Shown here: positions 18,856-31,080 of the stretch, in pieces
Numbering within the stretch: the stretch's first letter is position 1
How the letters are laid out: every line of letters starts with the position of its first letter
DNA from: Candidatus Gastranaerophilales bacterium
Lineage (GTDB): Bacteria > Cyanobacteriota > Vampirovibrionia > Gastranaerophilales > Gastranaerophilaceae
Length of the DNA stretch: 38,110 bases
NCBI GenBank assembly: GCA_944326615.1
Contig: CALVEO010000013.1
Coordinates: 1 to 38,110 of the forward strand
Reading direction: 5' to 3'
The notes under the pieces: model-generated
Told to the model about the DNA's origin: nothing
What the model saw: only the letters and a program-made list of their open reading frames with translations
The model's database searches: none
Translations under genes and position numbers: made by a program

Positions 18856-18884
18856 TTGAAAAATAAAAAAAAATACTTTATAAT
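18856..18884 (+). promoter_or_regulatory. consensus promoter upstream of the G10 tract and prepilin
   Basis: TTGAAA (18856-18861) and TATAAT (18879-18884) are 17 bases apart, close to the sigma-70 ideal. Transcription would start near 18891. AAAGGAG (18906-18912) and an ATG (18919) follow at proper spacing. Confidence 0.75.
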
Positions 18885-18918
18885 AATTATGTAGTTTAAT
18901 TTTTGAAAGGAGACTTAA

Positions 18919-18966
18919 ATGCGAAAAATTGATTATTCCGAAATGTCGGGGGGGGGGCACTTTTAG
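18919..18966 (+). CDS. short leader reading frame with G10 tract (prepilin start, out of frame)
   Basis: ATG 18919, preceded by a strong promoter and AAAGGAG, reads MRKIDYSEMSGGGHF and stops at 18964-18966. The run of ten G (18948-18957) sits in codons 10-13. With 11 or 8 G the same start would continue without a stop into the prepilin frame (ALLAGRRAVSQVV, then joining 19020) to give a 436-residue protein (11 G). With 9 G it ends after 19 codons. This is what a slipped-strand on/off switch looks like, although a simple pseudogene or an assembly error in the homopolymer is possible. Confidence 0.55.
   Translation: MRKIDYSEMSGGGHF
18948..18957 (+). repeat. homopolymer tract G10
   Basis: Ten consecutive G in a very AT-rich region, 29 bases into a well-initiated reading frame. 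Long G tracts are rare by chance at this base composition and are classic sites of slipped-strand mispairing. Confidence 0.9.
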
Positions 18967-19007
18967 CTGGCAGAAGGGCTGTAAGTCAAGTCGTTTCCAG
19001 TAATATC

Positions 19008-19069
19008 ATTGCGCATTTATTGCGCAATCCGGAATTTGTCCTAAAAAGATCGCGCAACATATGCGCGAT
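19008..19069. repeat. pair of REP-like hairpins
   Basis: Two palindromes with the same geometry follow each other. ATTGCGC/GCGCAAT (19008-19014, 19022-19028) and ATCGCGC/GCGCGAT (19049-19055, 19063-19069) each have perfect 7-base arms and 7-base loops and share GCGC cores. Such twin GC-rich hairpins are the hallmark of REP/BIME-type elements. They lie within the open frame that leads into the prepilin. Confidence 0.6.
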
Positions 19070-20228
19070 GACAGGTCTTAATATTCAATTTCTTTCTCTT
19101 TTTGAATATGATGTCATTATATGGCAGGTTTTTATTCGGATGCTAGGATACTATGGCAGTAATGCAGTAGGACGTATCGTAAAAATTTTCCCTCTCTTGG
19201 GAGAGGAATTTATCAGAGGTCAGGAAGCCCAGAAGGCAAGAGGGCAAGCTGGTTTAGAAGATAGGAAGGTAAGAAGGTATGAGGATAGGCCATTTACGGT
19301 AAAAAGCTTATCCTCCTATCCTCCTACCCTCATATCTTCTGATAACCCTCTCCCTCAATCCCTCCCCCAGGGGAGGGAAGCAGAAAAATGCGCTTCACGT
19401 TTCACTCTTCACACTTCACTAAAAAAACAAACCGCCTTTACGTTGGCTGAAGGTGCTACGCACGTAGTCCACTTTGACGACATTCGTCAAGCCGCGTTTA
19501 ATTTGGTGAAAGGTAATACGCACGTAGCCCACTTTGACAAAATTCGTCGCGCTGCGTTCACTTTGGCTGAGGTGTTGATTACCTTAGGAATTATCGGTGT
19601 TGTCGCGGCCATGACTATGCCTGTTTTGGTTGGAAGCTACAGAAAAACGGTTACAGAAACAAAGTTACAAAAATTTTATTCTATAATGAACCAGGCAATA
19701 AAACTTGCAGAAGTTGATTATGGTGAAGCTTCTATGTGGGTGCCGCAGCGCGGTGATGATAACGGTGATTTTGGTGTATGGTATAACACATATCTTGACA
19801 AAAACATAAAATCATTGAGTAAAAACTATTATGATCTTTATTATCATGTAGCATTTTCTGACGGAAGCGGTTTTGCAGCATATATTCCTAAAGCACCTTC
19901 GGATGGAACTGCCATGGGGCCGGTAAGAGCATATATATTTTACTGTACTGATTATAAATACTGCTCTATGCCTACATATGAAGGAACTAGTGGAACAACG
20001 TTTGATGAGAGAAATTCATACGATGGAAAACATACATTCCTGTTTTCAATTTGCTCAGATGGAAGATTCGCTGCATCAGGATGTGTTTCCGCAGATGATA
20101 ATTATTATTCCAGAGATGTGTTACTAAGCGGTTGTGCAGACTCTGACCCGCACAAGAGGCACCTTTGTACTGCTCTTATTCAGCATGACGGCTGGAAGAT
20201 AAGCAAAGATTACCCTTGGATAAAATAA
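19020..20228 (+). CDS. prepilin-like protein with repeat-laden 5' region
   Basis: The genuine protein begins near residue 178 of this open frame. RRAAFTLAEVLITLGIIGVV is a type IV prepilin/type II pseudopilin cleavage and hydrophobic-helix motif (cleavage before Phe180, Glu at mature position 5). It is followed by about 200 residues of pilin-like globular domain with cysteines and the C-terminal end QHDGWKISKDYPWIK. The first 177 residues are encoded by repeats: REP-like hairpins, a purine/pyrimidine repeat and two extra copies of the cleavage motif at Phe140 and Phe160. No ribosome site suits any start between 19020 and 19557; the only well-made start is ATG 18919, one base out of frame through a G10 tract. 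Expressed pilin therefore needs a frame change or an unrecognised start. It would be processed by a PilD-type peptidase and placed in the inner membrane. Confidence 0.7.
   Translation: MRNPEFVLKRSRNICAMTGLNIQFLSLFEYDVIIWQVFIRMLGYYGSNAVGRIVKIFPLLGEEFIRGQEAQKARGQAGLEDRKVRRYEDRPFTVKSLSSYPPTLISSDNPLPQSLPQGREAEKCASRFTLHTSLKKQTAFTLAEGATHVVHFDDIRQAAFNLVKGNTHVAHFDKIRRAAFTLAEVLITLGIIGVVAAMTMPVLVGSYRKTVTETKLQKFYSIMNQAIKLAEVDYGEASMWVPQRGDDNGDFGVWYNTYLDKNIKSLSKNYYDLYYHVAFSDGSGFAAYIPKAPSDGTAMGPVRAYIFYCTDYKYCSMPTYEGTSGTTFDERNSYDGKHTFLFSICSDGRFAASGCVSADDNYYSRDVLLSGCADSDPHKRHLCTALIQHDGWKISKDYPWIK
19190..19376. repeat. dispersed repeat block shared with 11.7-12.0 kb
   Basis: This block holds a CCTCTC/GAGAGG palindrome (19191-19206), AGAAGGCAAGAGGGCAAGCT, an imperfect inverted repeat of about 34 bases (about 19257-19290 against 19312-19345: AGAAGATAGGAAGGTAAGAA and its near-complement), and CCCTCCCC/GGGGAGGG (about 19358-19375). 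Matching strings occur at 11750-11775 and 11935-12001 (AGGGCAAGAGGGCA; CTTACCCTCCTATCTTCCTA). It interrupts the 5' part of the prepilin frame without creating a stop. Confidence 0.65.
19431..19571 (+). repeat. 60-bp tandem repeats carrying the prepilin cleavage motif
   Basis: Units start at 19431, 19491 and 19551 (third partial). Each begins with codons for A-F-(T/N)-L-(A/V)-(E/K). Units one and two match at 46 of 60 positions, and the third continues as the real pilin helix. Between motif copies lies a segment with its own dyads (CTACG-CA-CGTAG and TTGACGA-CAT-TCGTCAA in unit one). Encoded spacers read GATHVVHFDDIRQ and GNTHVAHFDKIRR. Confidence 0.85.
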
Positions 20229-23388: not shown

Positions 23389-26300
23389 ATGGCACTGACT
23401 GTAGATGAAATTGCTGAAATCCTCAACACTATGCGTGTTGAAAATGAACATAATGTTGAAAATTTTGAAAAAGTTTTAACCGGAATAAATAACAAGCTTG
23501 AGTTAATGGCGGAAGATAACGAAGCTACTGATTTAATTAAGCTATATTTATCCGAGTTGAAAAAAATTGTAGAAGAAAAGCATAACAATGCAAATGACAG
23601 ATTCAGAACTCTGGAAAATTCTCTTAATAATCTTCTTTCATCACAGGAACAGTTTGCTAAAACATCAGAGCTAAGAGATTTGTTCCATGTTCTCAGTGCC
23701 AGTTTTGACACATTTTCAGGAGAATTTACAAGCCAGACAAGTACGCTTGAAACAGTTAATGACAAACTCGCCCAAATAGAAGAAAGCGTTTTTGATAAGG
23801 GGGAACTCGCTTCGTTATTGAACGGTTTTGCGTCAGATTTGTCTGAAATGAACAGTGGAATTGACAATTCATTTAAAAATATTGAAACTTCTCTTTCCGA
23901 TGCAGTTTTTGCGATTAACCGTTTAAATGCGCTGGATAGCAGGATTTCATCTCTAAGTGAAGATATAAATGCAATTCCTTCAAAAATTTCTTTTGCCGGT
24001 GTTGAAGAAAGAATTGAGAATTTTCAAAATATTATAAATTCTATTAGAGAAGCTGTCTCTGAAATTCCCGCGTTGAATGCCGGAATGCTTTCAAGCAGGT
24101 TTACGGATATAGAAAATTCATTTAAAAATATTGTTACAGAACAAAATTTTTTGGATTTTAAAGAAAATCTTGCTGATTTTGTACGGCAGATAAGCGATAA
24201 TGCAGTATCTATAAGCGAAGGTATAAATGCTAACAGGCAGAGAATAGAAAATATTTTAGCATCAATAAATACTCTTGATTACAAAAATGATTTTAATGCT
24301 GTTTCAGAAAAAATCAGCGCTCTTGAAGATGCTGTAAAAGGTATTTCCCAAAGCAGTGTTTATGAAATTCAAAACCTCGGAAGAACTTTGTCATCAGTTG
24401 TAACAGATTCGGATTTTGCAGGGTTTAAGGCTGAACTTGCAGATTTTGTGCAAAAAATTATCGATAATTCTTCTGCATTAAATTCAGAACTTTCATATAG
24501 TACGGAAAGAATTGAAAATATTCTTTCAACAGTTAATTCGCTGGATTATACTAATGATTTTGAGAACATTTCAAAAGAAATATCTGAATTAAAATCAGCG
24601 CTTAGCGACAATTTATCATTGTCAGAAAGTGTTAATAGCTTAATAGGCAGTGCAAAGAGTGAAATTACACAAAAGCTTGACGGATTTGAGACATCTTTGT
24701 CAACAATCGTAACAGATTCGGATTTTGCAGGGTTTAAGGCTGAACTTGCAGATTTTGTACAAAAAATTATTGATAATTCTTCCGCATTAAATTCAGAACT
24801 TTCATATAGTACAGAAAGAATTGAAAATATTTTAACTACAATAAAATCTCTTGATTTCAGAGATGATTTTGCAGCTATTGAAAGTCGTATAAATGATTTA
24901 AAAGAAACTTTTGATGCAGGCTCAAAAATCAATTATACAAATTTGTCTGAACAAATATTTTCTATTAAAGAAAGTATGGAAAGCAGTTTCACACAAATAG
25001 ATTCGGAACGGGATGCTGTATATTCGGATTTTAAAACTCAGTTAACCGGGATTTTTGATAATCTTGATAATCTGATAAAATCAAATCCGCAAAAATCTAT
25101 AGATGAACTTTCATCTCTTGTGCTTAGTTTATCTGAAACGGCATCTGTTTTGCGAAATGGTATAACAGAAGATATTCAGGGAGATTACGGGGATTTAAAA
25201 TCAAGCATAAATGCTGTTGCTGAAAATTTACAGATTGTAAAAGCAGATTTAATTGCCAAAAATTCTGATTTGTATAATTTGTCATCGCAAAATTCAAATC
25301 TTTTAGAAGGTAAAATAGATTTGCAGATAAAAACTCTTGAAGATTTAAAGACTGAATTCAGCGATGCAGGCAGGTTTGATTTAGAAAAAATTACGGCATC
25401 TGTTGAGAGTTTATATGCTGATATTTCAGGAATTATTGCAGATTTGAAAGAAGATGCAAATACAAATTATGAGGCCGTAAAATCGTATGTGGAAGAATTA
25501 TCTTCTGCTTTGAGCGGAATTAAGGATGAAATTTGTAATTTATCCGGGCAAAATTCAAATATTTTGAGCGGCAAGATGGATTCTCTATCAGATGGCGTGA
25601 ATGAGTTTCATGAAGAATTTAAGCAGGCATGTGCAAGTGATGCGGTTAATTTTTCAACGATTTCAGGTGGTATAAATGAAGTCTCAGAAAAGATTGACGG
25701 TTTACAAAGCAGTTTGGCGCGGGATAATGACTTGAACATGCAAACTTTGAAATCTTTGATGGATGAATTGTGCGTAAAACTTTCGTCTGATCTGGATATT
25801 CAAAAAGAAATTTTTTCACATTCTTTGCAGGGAGATGAACAAAAACGTCTTGTACAGCTTCAAAATATTGCAGGTGACGTGAAAAATTTAGAGTCATTAA
25901 TTGCAGAAGGAAATGAAACTTACAAAAATACTATAGAAGAAAATATAAAGAGTATAAGAGAATACATTGCTGAATTGAGTAATTCTGTTTATGAATCACG
26001 TATGGACAGTGATGATAAATTCAGTACAAAATTGGAGGCTCTGGATGCATTAAATCATGGGTTTGAGAATTTTGTTGTATCAGTTAACAATCAAATCCGG
26101 AATGTATTGGACACTATAATTTCACTTGATGTATCCGGTCAAAACAGTGTAATACAGAATGAAGTTAATAATATAAAAGTTCTTTGTGAAACGATATCCG
26201 CTTCTTTGAATGAATCCCAAAAACGTAAAGACGAATTAACACAAATTATTTCGTCTTTAATGGATAGTGTGCTTAAAAAAGAAGATATAAATGAAATATC

Positions 26301-29300
26301 ATTTAAGCTTGATGAATATACTGATATATTGAATTCATTAAAAGATTTTATTGAGGCATCTTTTGCAAGTAATTCTTCTGATATAAATTTATTATTCGAA
26401 AAACTGGAGACCTCTTTTGCGAATATTTCGTCAAAACAAGACTTTTTGGAATTTAAGAGTGAACTTTCAGGCTTTTTGCAGACGATTACAGATAATGCAA
26501 ATATATTGAATGTTGATTCTACATTTAATAAAGAAAAAATTCAGGAAATTTCTGAAAAAGTTTCTACACTCGAAATTCCGGATTATTCATACGACCTTGT
26601 ACAAATTTCTTCTAAAATAGATGATTTACAGGAGCTTTTTGCAAATTCTTCTGCTTCGAATTATGAGGGGATAAGCGCTAAGCTTGATGATATAAGTTCA
26701 AAAATAGAAGAAAACGGTAAAGACGAAAAAATAACAGGAAAGTTAGATGAATTTTCAGAGCTTATTAACTCTTTAAAAAATATTGTTTCTGCTTCTATAG
26801 ATACATCATCAACAGAAGAACAATTTTTAAGAATAGAAGATGCGTTTTCCAGAATTGTAACAGAAGAAGATTTTACAAATTTCAGAATTGATTTTGGTGA
26901 TTTTATACAGAAAATTCTAGATAATGCGGATGTTATTCATTTGAACAGCGAAGCAAACAAAGAGCAAATTAATAAAATTGTTGAAAAACTCGCCGAACTT
27001 GATTACACACAAAATTTTGACAGTATAGAAGGTAAATTAACCGAAATTCAGACTTCTTTTGAAAATAATTCTAAAACGAATTATGAAAATATAATAAACG
27101 AGATACAGGATTTTAGAAGTAATTTAGCAGAAAAGTTTTCAGACACAGCTGCAAAAGAGAATTTTGACAGGCTTAATTTATCTCTTGCTGAGTTATCTGA
27201 TAATGTTCAGATTCTTTCAGATATATCATCGCATAAGTCAATAGAGCTGCTTGATAAGATAGCCGGACAAATTCAAAGTTCTGCAAATGAAATTACTGAT
27301 AATGTAAACAGCGGTATAAAAATTAATATTGATGATTTGAAAATTTCTCTTGCAAATGCGATTAATGAGTTGAATACTGTTAAAAATGATTTTACAGAAA
27401 AAAGCGATAATGTAACTTTCAGTGTAACCTCAGGATACGATAATCTAAAATCCTCAATTGAAAATATATTGAGTGCATTTAATTCTCTAAATGATTATTT
27501 AAAAGATGATTATACAAAGAGTACGCATTTAATTTTGTCTGAGATTGAGGAATTATCCGCAAAAGCCGGAGAACTTAAGGATGAGATAAATAAATTTACT
27601 TCTGATTATATTGAGAGAGTGTATAATATATCAGAAGAAATATCTGATAAATTAGAAGGTTTGTCTGTCGGGCTTTCCGGTAGTTTGACGGCAGAGGTTT
27701 CGGAGTTTAAAAATATTCTTTCTTCAGTTTCTGATAATTTGCATAACATGTACGGTGAGTTAAAAGATTCAAATGAACTCCAGGTAAATGAGCTAAATGG
27801 CATTTCAGGTAATATATCAGAATTCCGCGGGCATGTTGATGAAATTATTCAGAATTTAAAAGATTATATAACTGAGTTGAATGTAGCGTCAAAATCTTCT
27901 AAGTCTTTGAGTGACAGTAAATTTTCTGAAAAGCTGCTTTCTCTTGAAAGTGCAGTTGTGAACAGCGCTGATGCTTATGAAACAAAAATTGAACTTTTGC
28001 AGAATAAAATTGCGGAGTTTGTTCAAATTGTAGAAAATTCCTCATCAGATACTGAGGCAAAAATTTCATCCTCTGCACAAGAAATTAATTACATTAAAGA
28101 TGAACTTACATCAGTTTCAGAGCTTATAAATGCTGTTAAACTTTCTTCTGATGAAAAAACTTCTCAGATAATTTCACTTCTTGATACAAGGCTGGATAGT
28201 ATTACTGTTTCTGTTAATGAAATTGCAGATAATGCATTAAAAGGTATAAATTCATCAATATCTGATAATCTTTTGTCTGTAGATGACAAGCTTACTGTTT
28301 TACAAAATACAATTGATTTGTTGCGCGGGACTAATTTATCGGAGTTCGCAAATAATATTGATGATAAAATTGTTGAGATAAAACAGGAATTAGGACTGGT
28401 TAATGCAGATATTGCAGATGCATTACAGAATAAATCTGAAGATATTCTAAGAGCTTTGGAACCGGTTAAAACAGCTATTGATGAGTTTGCGGGTTATGAT
28501 TTTGAAAAATTGTTAACTGATATAAAATCCGAGCTTGAAACTTCTTTCATGAATTTCAGTGTGGATGTAAATGGCGAACTTTCCGCAAATTCTGAATCGG
28601 TTTTAAGATTGGAGCAGGCATATAAAGAAACATTTAACAAAATTTCAGTTATTGAAGATTGTGTATCTGAAGATATACAAAACAGTATAGAACTTTTAAA
28701 TGTTACAATTGAAACTAATACACGTAATTTAAAATGCGGTTTTGAAGAGAAACTCGATGAATATATAAATGATTTGAGAGTGCATCTTGATGAAGTTTTG
28801 CATGACACCAGAACACTTGATTCAATTGAAAATTTAAAAGATGAAATTTCTGTAAAATTAGATTCAGTTTTGTCAGAGCAAAGCAGCATTGCGGAACAAG
28901 CAGATATTATTTCAGCTGGAATTTCTACACTTGGTGATGATATAAAAAATTATGTTCAGTCAGCCTGTGAAAATACTATTGATAAATACAGTCCGATTCA
29001 AAGTAAAGAAGCTATAGAGGCTTTACATCAAAAAATAGATACATTTGTAGATTCTACGAATAATGAAGATATTTTGGAAGCTTTATTGGAAATCGAACAG
29101 AAATCCGGTAAATTAGGTGCTGATATCAGTGAAACTGTTCATGAAATAATGGATAAAATTGAAACATTTGAAAAGGATAATTCGTTAATTCTTGCATTTC
29201 ATGAGCTTGCAGCGGAGATTGATTCATTTAAAGATAATTCAGAGCTTAATACTGCATTGAAAGCTTTGTCTGAAAAAATTGATATTTTAGCCGCAGATGA

Positions 29301-31080
29301 ATCCATAAGTGAAATACGTGATGATATTAGTGAAGCCTTTGACAGTGTAAATTCAAAAATAGATGTTCTTGTTGCGGATACAAATGTAGAAGATTTAAAA
29401 GGACAGTTAAAAGACGCATTTGACTCATTGAATGATAAAATAGATATAATTGCATCTGATGCTGAAACGGCTGATTTGAAAGATGAACTGCATGGTGCAT
29501 TTGAATCTTTAAATACTAAAATAGATATAATTGCGACGGATACGGCTGTAGATGATTTAAAAGATGAATTGCGTGGAGCATTTGAATCTTTAAATACTAA
29601 AATAGATATAATTGCTGCAGATACATCCGTTGATGATTTAAAGGATGAATTAAACACAGTATTTGAAACATTAAATAACAAAATAGATATAATTGCATCT
29701 GATAATGCTGTAGATGATGTAAAAGATGAATTAAATGATGTATTTAATGCGTTAAATGCAAAGATAGACATAATAGTATCTGATACCACTGTTGAAGATT
29801 TAAATGAGCAGCTAAATGATGCGCTTGAAACTGTAAATTCAAAAATAGATATTCTTGCCTCTGATACTTCAATTGAAGAATTGCATGAAAAACTTGATGA
29901 AGTTCATCAAACAGAAGATAGAGTTTCAGAGATGCTCTCGACTTTGCATGAAAAAGTTGATGCAATAGCTTCGGATGGCTCTGATTTTAATATTGAAGAT
30001 GAAATTGATGATATTAAATCTTTAATTTTTGAACAGAGAAAATATTTTGAAGCATCTTCTGATGAAAAAGCAGCGGCAATTGATAAATATCTGCGTGATG
30101 TCTTGCTGAAGCTTGATAATGTTGATCTTGAAAAAAATTCTGAAGATATAAAAGATTCCATTACAAATGCCCTTGTCTCGCTTTTTGAACAGGTATCTTT
30201 TGTAGAAGAAAGTGAAGATATAAAGGATTTTGTAGAAGAAAAGACTGATGCCATTAATCAAAGTCTTCTTGAAGTTCAAAATCAATTGAAACAAATTGCA
30301 AGTTCAAATGATGAATATAATTATTCATATACTCTGCAGGATGTTGAGACTGATATTGCTAAATTAAGGATGGCAATAAACAATATGTCCGGCAATGATT
30401 TTGCAAGTTTTTCGGATGATATTAAAAAGATTGTAAGTTCTGTAGAAGGTCTTGAATCATCCTTAACACAGGATCAAATGGTTGATTTAAAAGGCGATAT
30501 TGAAAAACTTAATGATGATATATTGAGTATAAGTTCAAGAACAAACAAACTTCTTTTAACATCTGATGAATCTTATAAAGCTTTAAACGATGGTTTAAAC
30601 AATTTTAGCAGTCTTGTATATAAACTTGAAGATCGAATTAATTATCTTGATAATACAGAAGCCAGCCAGAGACTTGAAAGAAAAATTGATAATATTCATT
30701 CAATGGCTGTTGCATCTGCAAATGCTGATAAAGTATTTCATCAGGTAATGATGTATTTAGGTGAGTGGATTGACTCTACGACTGAAAATATCGCTAGTAT
30801 TACCGATAAAACTTCTGAAATATCTAAAATCAAAAAAAATCTTGCAGAGCTTAAAGAGGCAATCCCTGAAAAAACGGAAATTCTTGATGAGATTGAGAAT
30901 AAGTTTGAAGAACAGGAACTGCGTATAGACAGATTAGAAATGAAATTAGAGAAAATTTTATCGGCACTTGAAGAAAAAGATGATATGATGTTAAATAGAA
31001 AAGTGGATAAAATCGAAAAATTAATATCCAGACTTGGTACCAATATAGAAAAACTGACATCGTATGTTGATGAAGAATAA
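23389..31080 (+). CDS. giant repetitive coiled-coil protein of unknown function
   Basis: 2563 aa, one unbroken frame of 7.7 kb. It has no signal peptide, no membrane segment and very few cysteines, and is acidic and rich in Ser, Asp, Glu, Ile and Leu in heptad-like spacing, so it should be a long cytoplasmic rod. A module of about 75 residues occurs five times, starting near residues 249, 338, 441, 1014 and 1157 (pattern V-T-x-x-x-F-x-x-F-+-x-x-L-x-D-F-V-x-x-I-x-D-N). Copies two and three are almost identical in DNA. Seven 27-residue repeats run from residue 1974 to 2162. The C terminus is a denser Lys/Glu coil ending SRLGTNIEKLTSYVDEE. Roles in cell shape, polarity or chromosome organisation are possible but unsupported. 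It overlaps the next gene. Confidence 0.85.
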   Translation: MALTVDEIAEILNTMRVENEHNVENFEKVLTGINNKLELMAEDNEATDLIKLYLSELKKIVEEKHNNANDRFRTLENSLNNLLSSQEQFAKTSELRDLFHVLSASFDTFSGEFTSQTSTLETVNDKLAQIEESVFDKGELASLLNGFASDLSEMNSGIDNSFKNIETSLSDAVFAINRLNALDSRISSLSEDINAIPSKISFAGVEERIENFQNIINSIREAVSEIPALNAGMLSSRFTDIENSFKNIVTEQNFLDFKENLADFVRQISDNAVSISEGINANRQRIENILASINTLDYKNDFNAVSEKISALEDAVKGISQSSVYEIQNLGRTLSSVVTDSDFAGFKAELADFVQKIIDNSSALNSELSYSTERIENILSTVNSLDYTNDFENISKEISELKSALSDNLSLSESVNSLIGSAKSEITQKLDGFETSLSTIVTDSDFAGFKAELADFVQKIIDNSSALNSELSYSTERIENILTTIKSLDFRDDFAAIESRINDLKETFDAGSKINYTNLSEQIFSIKESMESSFTQIDSERDAVYSDFKTQLTGIFDNLDNLIKSNPQKSIDELSSLVLSLSETASVLRNGITEDIQGDYGDLKSSINAVAENLQIVKADLIAKNSDLYNLSSQNSNLLEGKIDLQIKTLEDLKTEFSDAGRFDLEKITASVESLYADISGIIADLKEDANTNYEAVKSYVEELSSALSGIKDEICNLSGQNSNILSGKMDSLSDGVNEFHEEFKQACASDAVNFSTISGGINEVSEKIDGLQSSLARDNDLNMQTLKSLMDELCVKLSSDLDIQKEIFSHSLQGDEQKRLVQLQNIAGDVKNLESLIAEGNETYKNTIEENIKSIREYIAELSNSVYESRMDSDDKFSTKLEALDALNHGFENFVVSVNNQIRNVLDTIISLDVSGQNSVIQNEVNNIKVLCETISASLNESQKRKDELTQIISSLMDSVLKKEDINEISFKLDEYTDILNSLKDFIEASFASNSSDINLLFEKLETSFANISSKQDFLEFKSELSGFLQTITDNANILNVDSTFNKEKIQEISEKVSTLEIPDYSYDLVQISSKIDDLQELFANSSASNYEGISAKLDDISSKIEENGKDEKITGKLDEFSELINSLKNIVSASIDTSSTEEQFLRIEDAFSRIVTEEDFTNFRIDFGDFIQKILDNADVIHLNSEANKEQINKIVEKLAELDYTQNFDSIEGKLTEIQTSFENNSKTNYENIINEIQDFRSNLAEKFSDTAAKENFDRLNLSLAELSDNVQILSDISSHKSIELLDKIAGQIQSSANEITDNVNSGIKINIDDLKISLANAINELNTVKNDFTEKSDNVTFSVTSGYDNLKSSIENILSAFNSLNDYLKDDYTKSTHLILSEIEELSAKAGELKDEINKFTSDYIERVYNISEEISDKLEGLSVGLSGSLTAEVSEFKNILSSVSDNLHNMYGELKDSNELQVNELNGISGNISEFRGHVDEIIQNLKDYITELNVASKSSKSLSDSKFSEKLLSLESAVVNSADAYETKIELLQNKIAEFVQIVENSSSDTEAKISSSAQEINYIKDELTSVSELINAVKLSSDEKTSQIISLLDTRLDSITVSVNEIADNALKGINSSISDNLLSVDDKLTVLQNTIDLLRGTNLSEFANNIDDKIVEIKQELGLVNADIADALQNKSEDILRALEPVKTAIDEFAGYDFEKLLTDIKSELETSFMNFSVDVNGELSANSESVLRLEQAYKETFNKISVIEDCVSEDIQNSIELLNVTIETNTRNLKCGFEEKLDEYINDLRVHLDEVLHDTRTLDSIENLKDEISVKLDSVLSEQSSIAEQADIISAGISTLGDDIKNYVQSACENTIDKYSPIQSKEAIEALHQKIDTFVDSTNNEDILEALLEIEQKSGKLGADISETVHEIMDKIETFEKDNSLILAFHELAAEIDSFKDNSELNTALKALSEKIDILAADESISEIRDDISEAFDSVNSKIDVLVADTNVEDLKGQLKDAFDSLNDKIDIIASDAETADLKDELHGAFESLNTKIDIIATDTAVDDLKDELRGAFESLNTKIDIIAADTSVDDLKDELNTVFETLNNKIDIIASDNAVDDVKDELNDVFNALNAKIDIIVSDTTVEDLNEQLNDALETVNSKIDILASDTSIEELHEKLDEVHQTEDRVSEMLSTLHEKVDAIASDGSDFNIEDEIDDIKSLIFEQRKYFEASSDEKAAAIDKYLRDVLLKLDNVDLEKNSEDIKDSITNALVSLFEQVSFVEESEDIKDFVEEKTDAINQSLLEVQNQLKQIASSNDEYNYSYTLQDVETDIAKLRMAINNMSGNDFASFSDDIKKIVSSVEGLESSLTQDQMVDLKGDIEKLNDDILSISSRTNKLLLTSDESYKALNDGLNNFSSLVYKLEDRINYLDNTEASQRLERKIDNIHSMAVASANADKVFHQVMMYLGEWIDSTTENIASITDKTSEISKIKKNLAELKEAIPEKTEILDEIENKFEEQELRIDRLEMKLEKILSALEEKDDMMLNRKVDKIEKLISRLGTNIEKLTSYVDEE
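24400..24522 (+). repeat. 123-bp near-identical internal duplication, first copy
   Basis: Matches 24709-24831 (offset 309 bases, 103 codons) with only about four differences, all but one of them at silent third positions or close to it. It encodes VTDSDFAGFKAELADFVQKI and onward. The near identity marks a recent duplication or gene conversion within the giant coiled-coil gene. Confidence 0.9.
24709..24831 (+). repeat. 123-bp near-identical internal duplication, second copy
   Basis: Second copy of 24400-24522. The sequences around the copies (24523-24708 and after 24831) are diverged, so only the central module is recent. Confidence 0.9.
29308..29874 (+). repeat. seven tandem 81-bp repeats (27-residue units)
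   Basis: Units start at 29308, 29389, 29470, 29551, 29632, 29713 and 29794. The consensus is D-D-L-K-D-E-L-x-x-A-F-E-S-L-N-x-K-I-D-I-I-A-x-D-T-x-V. Units three and four are nearly identical at the DNA level (GATTTAAAAGATGAA, TTTGAATCTTTAAATACTAA), and outer units are more diverged, which suggests expansion from the centre. Twenty-seven residues is one short of four heptads, so each unit would shift the coiled-coil register. Confidence 0.92.

Follow-up and report, generated by a model that had tools for sequence, protein, structure and literature searches.

A 60-bp repeat in the leader of a pilin gene of Candidatus Gastranaerophilales leads, in our best reading of the sequence, to what appears to be a large pilin-switching system. 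The window, that is the whole stretch of DNA analysed (38,110 nucleotides), and the genomes related to it suggest that this lineage probably carries a large repertoire of phase-variable pilins that are OFF by default, would be switched in living cells and have recombining leaders that are cleaved off. We lean towards a picture in which each genome holds from dozens to more than 150 pilin genes, each kept OFF by a ten-base G/C run in a leader that is cleaved off, and each opened when one base is added. Leaders and bodies would be reshuffled at the cleavage codons, and the 60-bp unit would be a footprint of this reshuffling. Such a repertoire would be among the largest single-family phase-variable repertoires known.

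The features of the window gene are the following:

18879..18884, + strand: TATAAT, candidate -10 box for the pilin gene proposed to be switched, in a stretch shared with a paralogue whose run has 11 G
18906..18912, + strand: AAAGGAG ribosome-binding site (RBS); the same layout of RBS, ATG and tract is found in 46 pilin genes of this genome
18919..18966, + strand: OFF frame computed for a run length (n) of 10, MRKIDYSEMSGGGHF, 15 codons and then TAG
18948..18957, + strand: poly-G with a length of exactly 10, proposed as the ON/OFF switch; by run-length frame calculation the gene is open at n=11 or 8
18958..19430, + strand: leader mosaic, stop-free in the pilin frame, with modules shared with other pilin leaders according to matches in its own genome
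19431..19451, + strand: first prepilin core, TAFTLAE, without a helix after it
19452..19511, + strand: 60-bp unit 1, GATHVVHFDDIRQAAFNLVK, core decayed to FNLVK (match of unit model R1 at 19452-19510)
19512..19571, + strand: 60-bp unit 2, GNTHVAHFDKIRRAAFTLAE, which provides the working prepilin signal (R1 match at 19512-19571, E 1.1e-18)
19557..20228, + strand: mature pilin body, with predicted cleavage between A and F (19556/19557), N_methyl helix (PF07963) and DUF6613 domain (PF20318)

The repeat is real, and its original description was partly confirmed, with corrections. A 60-bp direct repeat with a truncated third copy occupies 19428-19547 (period 60, 2.4 copies, score 179) and is the top-scoring array of the window, with the exception of that in a gene with 81-bp repeats. 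Units one and two had been described as alike at 46 of 60 bases, which holds in the register 19452-19511 against 19512-19571. Three AFTLAE motifs, 20 residues apart, had also been reported; the F codons do lie at residues 140, 160 and 180 of the 402-aa ORF and the pilin helix follows only the last, but the middle motif reads AFNLVK. The encoded protein has the type IV prepilin motif (G/A followed by FTLxE) and hydrophobic helix, and matched PF07963 with 22.5 bits (cut-off 21.2) and PF20318 with 40.3 bits. The 60-bp module can be described as about 13 codons of spacer followed by the putative prepilin-cleavage codons AAFTLAE, within a type IV prepilin leader.

The unit recurs widely. In the 1.96-Mb genome of the window (G000), 43 places matched the repeat-region query and a sequence-only model of the unit found 49 copies, and the same model found copies in 23 of the 33 genomes of the genus (0 to 49 each); this recurrence rules out a chance or single-locus repeat. 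An exact-pattern scan of 84,980 named genomes gave matches in Candidatus Gastranaerophilales bins and in unnamed bins, all directly preceding AAFTLAE and a pilin helix except for one chance match in an Acidobacteria bin. Carriage of the unit by phages or viruses was also considered and rejected, the viral contigs giving no match by pattern or by protein. The original prediction called for copies in other pilin genes with and without the insert, and this was strongly borne out: among 61 pilin genes in the stretches of the own genome that were examined, 31 have units (one in 19, two in 8 and three in 4) and 30 have none. The spacers of 47 copies in these 31 genes are related to one another, contrary to the outcome that had been named as refuting the prediction (a repeat confined to this locus, or spacers with no relation to each other), and all the copies examined lie in pilin leaders, although not all of the 49 own-genome matches were inspected singly. 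Furthermore, all 47 copies are in frame, 60 bp long and end at the FTLAE/VLITLG junction, and they begin exactly 59, 119 or 179 bases (counted from model position 2) before the E/V codon junction. Equal leader contexts occur with 0, 1 and 2 units, as with FTLHTSLKK in L029, L010 and L001; in a plain case, MSNNSKYG-FTLAE is followed by three units and then VLITLG, and in a relative (G004) MKKFNKKG-FTLAEVLITLG has zero units. The repeat varies leader length, as had been proposed, in 60-bp steps at the prepilin signal. Since cleavage is predicted to remove the leader, a change in its length is unlikely to be what chiefly matters, and the homopolymer switch upstream is a more likely function of the region. 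Internal units mostly end in FNLVK followed by GNTHV whereas last units end in FTLAE, so the arrays seem to have been copied from shared ancestors and not made afresh in each gene.

The original interpretation took the unit for a small mobile hairpin element directed at prepilin signals, whose insertion would duplicate about 21 bases. Copies are present in many pilin genes, invariably sit at the prepilin core and occur in some paralogues and not others. Such an element would produce this pattern, yet we consider it extremely improbable. The folding of the repeat was indistinguishable from that of shuffled sequences (z = 0.06), the consensus structure of the aligned copies had 0 pairs and, of the two dyads described in the spacer, 26 of 47 genomic copies have CTACG/CGTAG and only 7 have TTGACGA/TCGTCAA. 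The duplication was not recovered either, since core identity was 67.7% within the same locus and 66.5% between loci (permutation p = 0.15), and the 21-nt cores flanking the unit in single-unit genes were 67.4% identical within a locus and 68.5% between loci. In addition, no copies were seen outside pilin genes among those examined, and the 84,980-genome scan gave matches only ahead of pilin helices, apart from one chance match. The unit gave no sign of transposition and acts as a cassette with its own core. Ordinary local tandem duplication without wider meaning, which is very improbable in our estimation, would make the 60-bp register and the head-to-tail arrays of 1 to 3 units by unequal crossing-over. 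However, units are common to 31 genes in this genome and to several species, and single units are present in many genes, so that spread between loci is also needed; local duplication is contradicted as a full account and is likely a component of the best explanation.

Leaders and bodies of these pilins have independent relationships. Seventy-seven percent of leader bases are common to another leader, and of 2890 18-mers shared by leaders, 2820 keep to a single frame and 2 are found on the opposite strand. Among 1711 pairs of pilins of the own genome, 62 share only the leader, 3 only the body and 1 both. L090 and L151 have 97.2% identity over the stretch that begins 3 bases ahead of FTLAE and ends with the stop codon, and their upstream sequences are unrelated; L076 and L152 are 84% identical over the same extent with unrelated leaders. 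These breakpoints indicate that recombination recurs at the FTLAE codons, and this would account for the addition of units at precisely this place. It appears that leader blocks recombine independently of the pilin body and that the unit travels with them. The leaders are made of repeats and reach 318 residues. The window leader, about 200 stop-free codons after the RBS, ATG and G10, has 58 matches in its own genome, of which 38 are on the same strand and within 1.2 kb upstream of a pilin motif. The other 20 are not so placed, so some modules either have other homes or adjoin pilins missed at contig ends. Modules away from pilin motifs (query about 226-421 of 18958-19430) were found at C20:15742, C5:24750, C40:17707 and C36:14737 of G000, among others. 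Contigs C9, C21, C55, C63 and C72 of this genome have a run within about 250 bases of one end, which would occur where modules common to several leaders interrupt the assembly, and some pilins may be missed.

The leader of the window gene begins with a run of ten G (18948-18957), missed in the original prediction, because of which the ORF is not in frame with the ATG at 18919, the one good start codon available to it. The frame from this ATG has 27, 15 and 436 aa at n=9, 10 and 11, respectively, and the 436 codons at n=11 take in the leader and both units and continue into the pilin. In a paralogue at C11:15034, whose upstream region is the same, the run is G11 and the frame is open. An internal start after the run was considered and rejected, since the only good Shine-Dalgarno and ATG (about 19387) are in another frame. 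The own genome contains 74 G/C runs of 8 or more, and 64 runs of exactly 10 when 0.06 would be expected from base composition. For the frame analysis each run with an RBS and ATG upstream was paired with whichever prepilin motif lay closest within 1.1 kb, regardless of frame. From the motif back to the run, 44 of 46 such genes in the own genome were stop-free (the 46 leaders have 6386 codons in all, in which about 365 stops would be expected from shuffling), as were 97 of 97 in relatives. Run lengths of n = 2 mod 3 would open the pilin frame in 42 of 46 own genes (chance 1/3, p about 3e-16) and in 80 of 97 genes of relatives (p about 3e-23 against one third), p values that are optimistic given that leader starts are partly of shared ancestry. 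In relatives, the genes in frame were 15 of 21 at n=11, 6 of 56 at n=10 and 0 of 19 at n=9, so the frame is anchored and the run length varies around it. Only 4 of 46 own genes are in frame as assembled, two at n=11 and two at n=10; these two, together with the 6 of 56 in relatives, are open at ten despite the OFF model. In nearly all genes the n=10 frame stops after about 14-21 codons. As in contingency genes, the run lies between start codon and body and its length sets the frame.

The run on the coding strand is G in some pilin genes and C in others. A second leader class with poly-C (MxREALNCPPPR..., ...RIAPPP...; L073, L075, L089, L134 and others) is unrelated in sequence to the poly-G class and follows the same frame rule. 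Each species was represented by one genome, and pairs of genes differing in run length were found among paralogues and relatives: L098 (G11, open) and L138 (C10, closed) are 92% identical over the body and the last 315 bp of the leader, L083/L246 have n=10 and 11 and L086/L118 n=10 and 9. In contig C40 of the own genome, a 611-aa pilin-like protein (L154:1849-3684; YTLAEIVIVLLVV) has a G11 run in its leader and is in frame; similar large pilins of relatives, L241 and L250, are also open, and core minor pilins may therefore be kept ON. Homopolymer runs were also observed near the start of non-pilin ORFs of relatives (L251, L223 and L191, secreted or unknown proteins), so switching may reach beyond pilins.

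Counted over all 33 genomes of the genus, and including those outside pilin genes, runs of exactly 10 numbered 1621, compared with 148 of 9 and 150 of 11, so that n=10 makes up 84% of these three lengths. Exact G10 runs were found in 29 of 33 genomes, up to 169 in one of them (G011), which makes it unlikely that the tract is an assembly artefact of one genome; assemblies may nonetheless give a wrong homopolymer length. The number of G10 runs followed the number of pilins per genome (Spearman 0.65). The runs are common in this genus; a few other genera of the order have them in abundance (for example 73 in G060 and 57 in G061), and most others have few or none. Matches to the pilin motif reached 108-119 in one genome. 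G004 and G002 have 128 and 96 pilin motifs with 3 and 0 exact G10 runs, and their sampled genes (L263-L274) have mostly ordinary short leaders; the switch is therefore not essential to pilin expansion. Prepilin peptidase cleaves between G or A and F ahead of the hydrophobic helix. The own genome has one gene for it (PF01478 at G000:C16:31108-31500, E 5.9e-10), and a single gene was found in 31 of 33 genomes.

We propose that homologous recombination, confined to one strand and one frame, assembles the leaders of this large pilin family from a set of modules, one of which is the 60-bp unit. As prepilin peptidase would remove the leader, its content could be nearly free, provided that its frame remains open and a functional (A/G)FTLAE with helix comes at its end. 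Recombination at the FTLAE codons would join leader blocks to different pilin bodies, and unequal exchange at the same codons may add or remove 60-bp units. The G/C run at the start of the leader, normally of exactly 10, would set the ATG out of frame with the pilin, and one base gained (n=11) or two lost would open the pilin frame. Each cell would then hold many intact, mostly OFF pilin genes, any of which slipped-strand mispairing could switch on at random and which would be expressed when ON. The last FTLAE, adjoining the helix, is probably the only cut site, and the run and the units would be removed with the leader.

The peak at ten, the main puzzle here, is narrow for a freely slipping tract and could reflect selection for OFF, a slippage bias or a role of n=10 itself; we prefer the first two in combination, with slippage biased towards ten, and recoding at ten is the main rival. 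Under recoding, the G10 or C10 would be a programmed slippery site where a -1 shift of the ribosome, or a base added by RNA polymerase, makes a fixed small share of the product full-length pilin without any change of DNA length. The sharp peak of run length in the genus would suit this reading, as would the exactly one extra base needed by 38 of 42 own n=10 genes and 50 of 56 of relatives, and L086 and its orthologue L118 both need +1 despite having n=10 and n=9. However, n=11 genes are mostly in frame (15 of 21) and n=9 genes mostly need +2 (15 of 19), which indicates a frame anchored to n = 2 mod 3 and not one that is one base short, and G and C runs with unrelated flanks both serve; we regard recoding as unlikely. 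It is also quite unlikely that the OFF genes are a sequence archive, like Neisseria pilS for pilE, from which a few open and expressed loci receive bodies by recombination. The recombination between leaders and bodies with a breakpoint at FTLAE and the few open pilin genes in the own genome agree with silent cassettes. Nevertheless, every OFF gene keeps RBS, ATG and a stop-free leader, needless in a silent archive, and the shared part is the leaders and not the bodies (62 pairs against 4).

Phase variation by homopolymers is well known, and in Neisseria pilin variation by pilE/pilS recombination is combined with PilC poly-G switching. The system proposed here would similarly join pilin diversity by recombination to homopolymer switching but, unlike in Neisseria, each pilin gene has its own start and switch and the recombining shared part is the leader. 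The (A/G)FTLAE with hydrophobic helix and the single prepilin peptidase gene are those of type IV prepilins and pseudopilins (PF07963, Peptidase_A24), from which these proteins differ in the 108-119 motif matches in one genome and the long repeat-built leaders. As in the contingency loci of Campylobacter jejuni, G/C runs in coding frames near gene starts would determine ON and OFF by their length. C. jejuni NCTC11168 has 29 poly-G/C loci with runs of 7 or more (PMC4965091), compared with 74 runs of 8 or more in one 2-Mb genome here and 169 exact G10 in a relative; in contrast to C. jejuni, the runs here belong mostly to one family, lie in a leader predicted to be cleaved and almost always have n=10, with the gene OFF. 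The evolution of run length has been modelled (PMC4085013). PMC10969869 mentions Rickettsia palindromic elements and further MITE-like repeats that are in frame; these resemble the unit as frame-keeping repeats inside coding genes, but the unit has no conserved palindrome and no insertion duplication, and the copies examined lie in no unrelated host genes. For Gastranaerophilales, type IV pili have been recorded in the form of gene lists (PMC5877343), and the openly licensed literature searched gave no paper dealing with phase variation or with an expansion of pilins in this lineage.

If this reading is correct, a common uncultured gut lineage next to Cyanobacteria would be able to display shifting sets of numerous different pilins, as pathogens vary their surface proteins, and automatic annotation would conceal the repertoire, most genes reading as frameshifted. 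With the switch in the peptide that is cut off, the mature pilin would remain unchanged, a design of which we know of no description. Lastly, the window also contains a 2563-aa ORF (23389-31080, + strand) with 81-bp tandem repeats at 29385-29866 and coiled-coil-like Pfam matches (apolipoprotein family, 94 bits), possibly a large surface or scaffold protein.
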